From NCBI GenBank assembly GCA_021793235.1, contig JAJYTD010000007.1, positions 1 through 64,000 of the forward strand: a stretch of 64,000 bases of DNA. Reading direction: 5' to 3'. Below are positions 48,661 to 51,383 of this stretch, piece by piece. The DNA comes from Actinomycetes bacterium (GTDB lineage Bacteria; Actinomycetota; Actinomycetes; Streptosporangiales; Streptosporangiaceae). The position numbers and the translations under genes are program-made. Each line of letters begins with the position of its first letter. Position 1 is the first letter of the stretch. A model generated the notes under the pieces. That model was not told where the DNA came from. It saw nothing but the letters and a program-made list of their open reading frames with translations, and did not search any database.

Positions 48661-49509
48661 TCAGCGGTTCGATGCGGGCTGGTCCTGTTCCGGCCGCCGA
48701 GCGTTCTCCTGATCCCGGCGCAGCTCGGCTACCTCAGCGCGCAGGGCGCGGAGTTCGGCCATGACCGGATCCCCCAGGCCCTTGTCCGGTCGGAGTTCAT
48801 CATCCTGGTCTCCGCTGTCGTGTTCCAGCGCCTCGACCGCGACGGCGATGAAGAGGTTGAGGGCGATGAACGTCGACGTGAGGATGAAGCAGACGAAGAA
48901 GATCCAGGCCGCGGGCTGTTCTGCCATCACGGTCTTGGCGATCGCGCCCCAGCTGTCCCCGGTCATGATCTGGAACAGGGTGAACAGCGAGGACATGATG
49001 TCGCCGAAGTGCTGCGGCGCGCTGTTGCGGAACAGGTTCGTGGCCATCACCGCGGACACATAGAGCAGCAGCGCGACCAGAAACGAGATGGATGCCATAC
49101 CGGGCATGGCCTTGAACAGCCCGGTCACGACGTGGCGCAGTGTCGGGATGACCGAGAGCAGGCGCAGGACCCGCAGCACGCGGAGCATGCGCAGGACCGC
49201 GAACGGCCCCGACGCCGGCAGCAGGGCGATTCCGACGATGACGAGATCGAACCAGTTCCACGGGTCACGGAAGAACCGGAGCCGATGGGCGAAGATCCGC
49301 AGCGATAACTCGACCACGAACACCGCGAGGACGGACATGTCCACCAGGTGCAGCAGCGGCCCGTGTGCGGCCATGATCTCCGGCGACGTCTCTACTCCGA
49401 GCAGCAGGGCGTTGACCAGGATGAGGGTGAGGATGCCCGCGTGGAACCATCGAGCCTCCACAATCTCGCGAACGCGGCTTCGCATGGTCAACAGGCGGGC
49501 TCCATCCAT
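48661..49509 (-). CDS. Bacterial voltage-gated cation-channel-like protein (ion_trans) with unusual filter
   Basis: 282 residues from ATG 49509; ATG 49485 is possible. Six TM segments: S1-S3, an S4 with Arg every third residue (VLRMLRVLRVLRLLSVIPTLRHVV), then S5, pore and S6 (NLFIAVAVEALEHD). This is the 6-TM subunit of BacNav (NaChBac) channels, which form tetramers, and the C-terminal coiled coil (MAELRALRAEVAELRRDQE) fits that. The filter reads TLFQIMTGDSWG with Asp185, where BacNav has TLESW. The Glu-to-Asp and Leu-to-Gly changes may alter ion selectivity. Confidence 0.88.
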   Translation of the reverse strand: MDGARLLTMRSRVREIVEARWFHAGILTLILVNALLLGVETSPEIMAAHGPLLHLVDMSVLAVFVVELSLRIFAHRLRFFRDPWNWFDLVIVGIALLPASGPFAVLRMLRVLRVLRLLSVIPTLRHVVTGLFKAMPGMASISFLVALLLYVSAVMATNLFRNSAPQHFGDIMSSLFTLFQIMTGDSWGAIAKTVMAEQPAAWIFFVCFILTSTFIALNLFIAVAVEALEHDSGDQDDELRPDKGLGDPVMAELRALRAEVAELRRDQENARRPEQDQPASNR

Positions 49510-49690
49510 TTCTTCCGGTTGGCGACGTCGGCAGAGCCTACCCTCGCGCGAACACCCGATCGGCGCGGTATCCGGCCTCAGCAGCGGCCGGAGCCGGTCA
49601 CGGCCGGGCGTTCGGGGCCGGGCGTTCGGGCCTGGCAACAACGGGAGCGCGCTCACCCTCAAGCGACTGCCCATGCCGGGCGTACACACG

Positions 49691-49718
49691 CAGGCCCCCG
49701 CTCGAAGGCGGGGGCCTG
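49691..49718 (-). terminator. Terminator-like hairpin after the amino-acid symporter gene
   Basis: Perfect 11-bp arms CAGGCCCCCGC and GCGGGGGCCTG (49691-49701, 49708-49718) with a six-base loop, 44 bases beyond the symporter stop. On the plus strand it is followed by a T-rich stretch; on the minus strand it lacks one. Confidence 0.7.
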
Positions 49719-49761
49719 CCGTTGTTCTATTCGCTTTCCCGCCTCCCGCGGGGGTCTGCCG

Positions 49762-51225
49762 TCACTGGGCCGTGGTCTGCTCCGTGCTCCCCTCGCGCTC
49801 CTCGCGGGGCTCCCAGCACTCGATACCGCGCAGCTGCGGCAGCCGGTCACGGGTGAACACCGGGTCGATGCCCTGCTTGCGCTGGGCGACGTAGTCCTTG
49901 AGCACCAGTGCCGCGATACCCGCCAGCGGGGCGAGGGCGACCAGGTTGACCAGCGCCATGATGCCCATGGTCAGGTCGGCCAGGCTCCACACGATCTGGA
50001 CCGAACCGATGGAGCCGAGGAACGTGGCCACCAGGAAGGCCACCTTAAAGCCGTTCATGACGCCGGGCGAGCTGTTCATGAAGCCCACGTTGGCCTCACC
50101 GTAGTAGTAGTTGCCCAGCACCGAGCTGTAGGCGAGCAGCAGCAGGATGACCGTCAGCAGGTGCAGCGACCAGGTGCCCAGGCTGGACTCCAGCGCCTCC
50201 TGGGTCAGCAGGGGACCGCGCTCCTCACCATAGGTGGGGTTGGAGACCAGGATCACGAAGGCGGTCATGGAGCAGATGACCAGGGTGTCGAAGTAGACAC
50301 CGAAGGTCTGCACCAGGCCCTGCTTGACCGGGTGGCTGACCGACGCCGAGGCCGCGGCGTTCGGCGCCGAGCCCAGCCCCGCCTCGTTGGAGAACATGCC
50401 ACGCCGGACACCCTGAACGATGACCGTTCCGATGGTCGCGCCGGCGAACTGCTCGATCCCGAAGGCGCTCTTGACGATCATGGCGAAGACAGCGGGGATC
50501 TGGTCCGCGTTCAGCCCGACGACGACGAGACCCATCACGATGTAGAGCGCTGCCATGAACGGCACCAGCATCGCTGAGGTCTGCGCGATGCGCCGGACGC
50601 CGCCGAAGATCACCAGCGCGGTCAGCGCCACCACCAGCACGCCGACGAGCGGCGCCAGCCAGCCGGGAACCTCGGCGCCCGTGGCCTCGACCGATCCCGC
50701 GACCGCGCCGGAGATCGTGTTGCTCTGCACGGCGTTGAACACGAAGCCGAAGGTGAAGGTGATGGTGATGGCGAAGATGACGCCCAGCCACCGCGCTCCC
50801 AAGCCCTGCTGCATGTAGTAGGCGGGGCCGCCGCGGAAGCCGGCCTTATCGCGGACCTTGTAGAGCTGGGCCAGCGTCGATTCGACGAAGCTCGCCGCAC
50901 CGACGAGCAGCGCCATGATCCACATCCAGAAGACCGCACCGGGCCCGCCGACCGCGATCGCGCCGGCCACGCCGACGACGTTGCCCGTTCCGATCCGGGC
51001 CGCCGCGGAGATGGAGAAGGCCTGGAAGGAGGAGACGGACTTCTTTCCGTCAGGCGCGATTTCCGGGGCGCCCCGAAGGGTGCCGATCATATCCGGGATG
51101 AGTCGAAGTTGGACCCCGGCCAACCGGACCGTGAAGTAGATACTAAGGATCACCAGCAGCGGAATGAGCAACCACTGCCAGAAGAAATCAGAGAAGGCGA
51201 CGACCAAGTCGTTGATTTGCTCCAC
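49762..51225 (-). CDS. Alanine/glycine:cation symporter (AgcS family)
   Basis: 487 residues from GTG 51225, chosen for the AAAGGAG site ten bases before it; TTG 51264 is in frame. About eleven TM segments. Family signatures are AAARIGTGNVVGVAGAIAVGGPGAVFWMW, GGPAYYMQQGLG and FSNEAGLGSAPNAAA. AgcS carriers take up alanine or glycine with Na+ or H+. Closest named members are AlsT/DagA. A dyad lies in the A/T-rich leader upstream. Confidence 0.93.
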   Translation of the reverse strand: MEQINDLVVAFSDFFWQWLLIPLLVILSIYFTVRLAGVQLRLIPDMIGTLRGAPEIAPDGKKSVSSFQAFSISAAARIGTGNVVGVAGAIAVGGPGAVFWMWIMALLVGAASFVESTLAQLYKVRDKAGFRGGPAYYMQQGLGARWLGVIFAITITFTFGFVFNAVQSNTISGAVAGSVEATGAEVPGWLAPLVGVLVVALTALVIFGGVRRIAQTSAMLVPFMAALYIVMGLVVVGLNADQIPAVFAMIVKSAFGIEQFAGATIGTVIVQGVRRGMFSNEAGLGSAPNAAASASVSHPVKQGLVQTFGVYFDTLVICSMTAFVILVSNPTYGEERGPLLTQEALESSLGTWSLHLLTVILLLLAYSSVLGNYYYGEANVGFMNSSPGVMNGFKVAFLVATFLGSIGSVQIVWSLADLTMGIMALVNLVALAPLAGIAALVLKDYVAQRKQGIDPVFTRDRLPQLRGIECWEPREEREGSTEQTTAQ

Positions 51226-51383
51226 GACCCGTGATGCTCCTTTGCGTCGGGGGGATGGTGCCAACGCACGACCCTACCCGGACATAGAGCCATATTGTGG
51301 CCAAAATCAACATCTTATGAGATATAGATCATTTCGTGACCGGCGATGAGCCATAGCACGCCGCCGGCAGTCCGACCAAATTA

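Follow-up and report, generated by a model that had tools for sequence, protein, structure and literature searches.

A gene for a predicted one-domain voltage-gated channel from actinobacteria with a TGDSWG filter and likely altered ion selectivity

Characterised BacNavs form homotetramers. Among them, NavMs and NavAb carry the filter TLESWS and are Na+-selective. The consequences of departing from this filter have been described for several channels. NsvBa, whose filter reads TLDSWGSG, is natively non-selective for Na+, Ca2+ and K+; the substitution D186E alone restores Na+ selectivity, and TLDSWGSG grafted into NaChBac renders that channel non-selective (PMC4225499). NavMs carrying E178D has a PCa/PNa of 0.5 and a PK/PNa of 0.4, both being <0.2 before the change, and no longer has the outer sodium site; NavMs with LDSWGS gave no functional current (PMC4972137). 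The NavAb mutants L176G and L176A acquire divalent block, in L176G with a new water-filled cavity at that place; in both, calcium blocks rather than permeates (PMC10349818). NavAb mutants with M181A are non-selective, with about 10-fold Ca2+ selectivity, and NavAb S178G equals CavMr at TLEGW, yet lacks calcium selectivity (PMC12919392). CavMr, the only identified prokaryotic calcium channel according to that 2026 paper, belongs with NavPp to the AnclNav group, whose native filters are not TLESW. Its filter TLEGWVD was likened by its authors to Cav repeats I and III, much of its calcium preference is lost in the mutant G4S, and when CavMr and NavAb exchanged filters neither chimera carried current; TLEDWTD is both the ancestral filter and that of NavPp (PMC7041947). 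A review that sorts channels by the residue after the acidic site assigns one-domain channels with Asp, followed by a neutral residue other than glycine, to the non-selective kind (PMC10120453). As the failed swaps, NavMs with LDSWGS and S178G make plain, filter effects are strongly context-dependent and their transfer between backbones is unreliable.

The gene considered here lies in a stretch of 64,000 nucleotides (the window) from an Actinomycetes bacterium of the Streptosporangiaceae (GCA_021793235.1, contig JAJYTD010000007.1). It occupies positions 48661-49509 of the minus strand, with the ATG at 49509 and the stop codon at 48661-48663, and encodes 282 amino acids. Pfam Ion_trans matches residues 20-231 (157.6 bits, E 4e-46). 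PKD_channel also scores above the cut-off (44.5 bits), as expected of a related pore fold, and a search of NCBIfam returned no family at E up to 1. Comparison with six close relatives gave pN/pS values of 0.30-0.48, indicative of purifying selection, and GC by codon position in the ORF is 67/41/87%. The Ion_trans match, the pN/pS values and the codon-position GC rule out a pseudogene or a chance ORF: this is a real and complete gene for a predicted bacterial voltage-gated ion channel of an actinobacterial channel group. Its N-terminus is uncertain, since alignments to relatives mostly begin at residues 5-11, and translation may actually start at Met9. Genes of this sort are not in themselves novel: a review already mentions one-domain channels in actinobacteria (PMC6259924).

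How does the overall architecture compare with that of described channels? The product is a one-domain Ion_trans protein with six transmembrane segments, S4 arginines and a BacNav fold, which places it in the prokaryotic Nav/Cav superfamily in the wide sense. Its best whole-length match is NavMs (E 2e-63); Cav3.2 follows at 3e-59, a score close to that of NavMs because several repeats add up. A pore-only search again ranked NavMs first, with its E178D mutant (4x88) on top. The leading position of NavMs in both searches rules out closest kinship with eukaryotic Cav repeats. A structure predicted for the single chain, with an alignment of 56 sequences including the query as input, has a mean pLDDT of 89.5, and Foldseek returned NavMs and NavAb as its top structural neighbours (E 3.4e-16). 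Superposition on NavAb gave Z 21.9 over 222 residues at 2.1 A. The channel has one domain, six transmembrane segments and four S4 arginines as NavMs and NavAb do, with 36-42% identity when structurally aligned and Z up to 21.9. Model helices and the start of the Ion_trans match at residue 20 locate the voltage-sensor domain S1-S4 at about residues 20-120 (49150-49452, minus strand). Within it, alignments and sequence identify S4 (49150-49203, minus strand; FAVLRMLRVLRVLRLL), in which four arginines follow one another every three residues, at 107, 110, 113 and 116. Across the 56-sequence alignment, query included, R107, R110 and R116 never vary, and R113 is present at no less than 90%; in a wider alignment, all four columns hold Arg or Lys in 81/81 channels of the query's filter class and in 31/31 TLESW channels. 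The initial annotation, made from the letters alone, had called the protein BacNav-like with an intact S4 and 6-TM layout, and at the level of superfamily and fold both descriptions are borne out by these matches and by the NavAb-like model.

Downstream of the sensor, alignment and model define a pore loop of P1 helix, filter and P2 helix at residues 171-197 (48919-48999, minus strand), whose P2 start has one residue fewer than in NavAb-like channels. A model helix covers S6 and its cytoplasmic extension (residues 201-239; 48793-48909, minus strand), and a further C-terminal helix with a Val/Leu heptad pattern spans residues 246-274 (48688-48774, minus strand; VMAELRALRAEVAEL). In the monomer model this last helix, with its heptads, appears to resemble the BacNav C-terminal bundle, a four-helix coiled coil by which the tetramer is held. 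The filter itself, located from the sequence and the alignment with NavMs, comprises T183 G184 D185 S186 W187 G188 A189 (48943-48963, minus strand), TGDSWG being residues 183-188 (48963-48946, minus strand). The canonical TLESW is absent and TGDSW stands in its place. The replacement of Leu-Glu-Ser-Trp by Gly-Asp-Ser-Trp-Gly had been noticed by the initial annotation and is confirmed; a shortening of the loop is to be added to it. When T-L-E-S-W-S-M-G of NavMs is aligned with T-G-D-S-W-G-gap-A of the query, three changes appear simultaneously: Leu to Gly at position 2, Glu to Asp at position 3, which is the high-field-strength site, and one residue missing after Trp-Gly. The extra residue after Trp is present in all 31 TLESW relatives; it is found in none of the 81 channels with T-[GA]-[DE]-x-W, none of the 53 xWP channels and none of the 16 channels with TFEDWTD. 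We call the last AnclNav-like because their filter is almost that of NavPp, TLEDWTD. Because the loop is shorter, the query's position 7 is not strictly equivalent to Met181 of NavAb.

What might such a filter mean for permeation? A near and described precedent is the filter of NsvBa from Bacillus alcalophilus (TLDSWGS; PMC4225499), with which the query has Asp3, Ser4, Trp5 and Gly6 in common, so that the combination of Asp3 and Gly6 is preserved. Altered selectivity relative to BacNavs, as the initial annotation expected, is likely in view of the published mutants, and sodium selectivity of the NavMs and NavAb kind is not expected. The Leu-to-Gly, Glu-to-Asp and Met-loss mutants and NsvBa all point to a divalent-admitting, weakly selective pore, and with Ser after Asp the query fits the review's rule for non-selective channels (PMC10120453). 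By analogy, we consider it fairly probable that the channel, in the manner of NsvBa, is permeable to calcium and discriminates weakly between Na+, K+ and Ca2+ instead of selecting Na+. The protein would form homotetramers and work as a voltage-gated cation channel within the prokaryotic Nav/Cav superfamily: on depolarisation S4 with its arginines would shift, and the S6 gate would open to an inflow of cations. Four short Asp3 side chains arranged in a ring, together with a cavity at Gly2, would allow the filter to admit and bind divalents, and the lack of the Met on which NavAb relies for monovalent selectivity may contribute to their entry. Some features count against this interpretation. NsvBa differs in having Leu at position 2, another residue at position 7, a NaChBac-type backbone and a GxG motif after Trp (W-G-S-G, as opposed to W-G-A-I in the query), and the absence of GxG speaks against NsvBa-like behaviour. 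Further points against it are the weakened calcium preference of CavMr G4S, which has at position 4 the Ser that the query carries natively, the calcium block without permeation in NavAb L176G and L176A, the imperfect match of position 7 to Met181, and the unreliable transfer of filters between backbones.

The Gly2 cavity could also serve a different end. If external divalents bound there while Na+ remained the main permeant ion, the protein would be a sodium channel blocked by calcium and might act as a sensor of external calcium. Block of this kind occurs in the NavAb mutants L176G and L176A (PMC10349818), and NavPp is a native Na+ channel that exhibits Ca2+-dependent inhibition (PMC7041947); yet Asp3 lets calcium pass in NsvBa and in NavMs E178D (PMC4225499, PMC4972137), and L176G is only half blocked at 40 mM Ca2+ (PMC10349818). 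We regard a calcium-blocked sodium channel as unlikely and retain a calcium-permeable, weakly selective pore as the preferred interpretation.

A comparison with eukaryotic channels bears on whether the pore might go further and select for calcium. The filters of Cav1.2, taken from PDB chains, are TMEGWTD (I), TGEDWNS (II), TFEGWPE (III) and TGEAWQD (IV). Repeats II and IV have Gly2, an acidic position 3 and Trp5 as the query does, but they carry Glu at position 3 instead of Asp and form part of a four-repeat protein with an asymmetric filter. The initial annotation had placed the motif nearer to the TGEDW of eukaryotic repeats; this holds for Gly2 and fails for position 3. From these short motifs, the query's class resembles repeats II and IV, just as CavMr resembles I and III. 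We read the likeness as probable convergence rather than descent because BacNavs are the closer match over the full query sequence. A truly calcium-selective channel, in which four identical filters would mimic Cav1 repeats II and IV as those of CavMr mimic I and III, could draw on TGEDW and TGEAW of Cav1.2, on the TGEAW and TGDDW members that occur within the query's filter class in the 215-row alignment, and on an alignment with Cav3.2 repeats I and II that runs without a gap between the filter Trp and the beginning of P2, with a one-residue gap further on. The query itself is a poor candidate for it. Asp3, Ser4 and Ala7 leave a single acidic filter residue per subunit, whereas CavMr depends on Gly4 and has Asp7; Gly4, the determinant of calcium selectivity in CavMr, occurs in 28/81 members of the query's class and is replaced by Ser here, and a Ser at that position lowers calcium selectivity in CavMr (PMC7041947). 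Relatives whose filters hold more acidic residues are the stronger candidates, and for the query we deem genuine calcium selectivity improbable. Weak selectivity with calcium permeation remains the reading that we carry forward.

TGDSWG is no lone oddity, and its motif class is ordinary within its actinobacterial branch. Relatives were gathered by similarity to the query from four sources: named genomes, which gave 61 loci; 60 near relatives, of which 28 had a match; 394 same-class genomes, of which 82 did; and 299 genomes in the phylum to which a proteobacterial relative belongs, of which 130 did, although many of these matches were weak. Part of the matches was retrieved; 233 matches yielded 217 distinct sequences, and 215 were aligned after removal of two that covered <200 query residues. 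T-[GA]-[DE]-x-W is present in 81 of the 215, a share of this sample and not a natural frequency, since the relatives were found by their similarity to the query; the exact TGDSWG occurs in 7/215. Of the 81, 69 have Gly and 12 have Ala at position 2, while at position 3 Asp stands in 59 and Glu in 22. Position 4 is more varied (Gly 28, Ala 22, Asp 17, Ser 12, Asn 2), as is position 6 (Ser 34, Gly 26, Pro 13, Ala 8). Carriers of the class among the named genomes include Nocardiopsis, Murinocardiopsis, Actinorugispora, Lentzea, Crossiella, Goodfellowiella, Streptosporangium and Nonomuraea, with the exact TGDSWG in Murinocardiopsis flavida and Nocardiopsis ansamitocini. One relative (G007) has two different channels that both read TGDSWGA (L005 and L031). 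In another (L028) the reading frame is broken at the filter, giving two adjoining matches to query residues 9-184 and 185-266, either through decay or through a sequencing error.

Trees were built by a quick method and without the filter columns. The larger has 122 rows (119 representatives under 72% identity and three references); the second, of 59 rows, omits the TLENFP and TLDGLG rows, Cav3.2 and the TLESW rows L075, L077 and L088 and is thinned in the rest. Neither includes the sequences of CavMr, NavPp or NsvBa. The actinobacterial channels form one branch in both, with SH-aLRT 95 (59/122 rows) and 99 (31/59 rows of the thinned tree). Into this branch fall the members of the query's class, at two separate places, the majority of the xWP rows and a small Trp-less class, GDGGLG. 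The TG/TA filter label requires two changes on the 122-row tree, and one or two origins of this filter are conceivable from its two places. The larger tree sets the branch beside the TLESW channels and apart from NaChBac and the TFEDWTD rows (SH-aLRT 95). However, a joint clade of the branch and the TFEDWTD rows, forced on the 59-row set, cost 2.57 log units and was unrejected (p-AU 0.406), and we therefore make no claim of a secure position within the NavAb-like group; the AU analysis also warned that NaChBac and the TFEDWTD rows join as long branches. Six sister sequences (L024, L132, L133, L139, L141, L142) have the filter [TI]GDGGLGD, which lacks the filter Trp and has one inserted residue. 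Distant relatives from other families of the class (L164-L178) likewise have Trp-less filters such as TLDGLGD and TLENFPx, for which we know of no characterised channel.

The genome also encodes a second Ion_trans channel (L001, contig C34), 44% identical to the query, with the filter TTENWPD. To our knowledge, no xWP channel has been characterised. The 53 in our alignment, some of them proteobacterial, all have Glu3, mostly Thr or Val at position 2, and Pro at position 6; the TTENWPD kind falls in the same actinobacterial branch as the query (SH-aLRT 95 and 99) and is likewise without the extra residue after Trp. The query might function only within a mixed tetramer that includes this paralog, in which case its own selectivity would say little. 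Both genes occur in the genome, and a census of 36 genomes (the window's own and 35 of the same family with a match, each judged by its one or two best retrieved matches) found one TG/TA-type and one xWP-type channel in 20. Tandem pairs with two different filters in Pseudomonadota point in the same direction. Set against this, the two genes lie on different contigs, characterised BacNavs are homotetramers, and nine of the 36 genomes have only TG/TA channels (five with a single channel, four with two) and seven only xWP, which suggests that neither kind depends on the other. An obligate mixed tetramer is in our judgement very improbable, and we continue to treat the query as a probable homotetrameric, calcium-permeable channel. 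The pairs just mentioned are found in three proteobacterial genomes (L207:448-2259, L209:1450-3156 and L210), where two distinct one-domain channel genes lie head to tail, with 3 bases between the listed ORFs of L207 and 24 between those of L209. Their filters are TSEGWPD with TTEGWPS or TMEGWPD with TTEGWPT, and from these motifs they are candidates for a two-subunit bacterial channel with filters like Cav repeats I and III. Match coordinates alone indicate a similar pair in genome G461.

For the initial annotation, the motif being common among described channels would have counted against its reading. A text search of the literature, beyond whose reach most subscription-journal papers lie, found no paper that mentions TGDSW together with a channel, but the very similar TLDSWGS has been described in NsvBa, which is non-selective (PMC4225499). 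Searching for TGEAW with channel and bacteria gave two papers, whose titles concern eukaryotic calcium channels. Likewise, no description of the T-[GA]-[DE]-x-W class was found in the literature searched, although the supplementary tree of PMC7041947 may include some members. One may speculate that the whole class is a natural actinobacterial family of voltage-gated calcium-permeable channels, a homotetrameric counterpart of the Cav1 II/IV filter with an origin separate from that of CavMr, tuned by positions 4, 6 and 7 and in many genomes working or assembling with the xWP paralog; in this full extent the proposal is doubtful. About 80 natural one-domain channels with related backbones and differing filters would nevertheless make the contribution of a II/IV-type Gly2 measurable in a symmetric pore, and if the channels are calcium-permeable, they would offer these actinobacteria a route from voltage to calcium.

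The surroundings of the gene were compared for seven neighbouring window genes across 61 loci of at least 5 kb. A copper ATPase recurs in four loci (L033, L035, L036, L076) and a methyltransferase in two (L033, L035); the other five, a presumed Na+/alanine symporter included, recur in 0/61. L033 and L035 are near relatives of the same filter class, which suggests that some local gene order is common to the closest kin. With so few recurring neighbours, gene neighbourhood was dropped as an uninformative clue to function. The putative Na+/alanine-type symporter, recognised by eye, lies upstream on the same strand (49762-51264, minus strand). Between it and the channel gene is a perfect 12-bp inverted repeat with a 6-base loop (49690-49719), possibly a terminator, so that symporter and channel may be separate transcripts.
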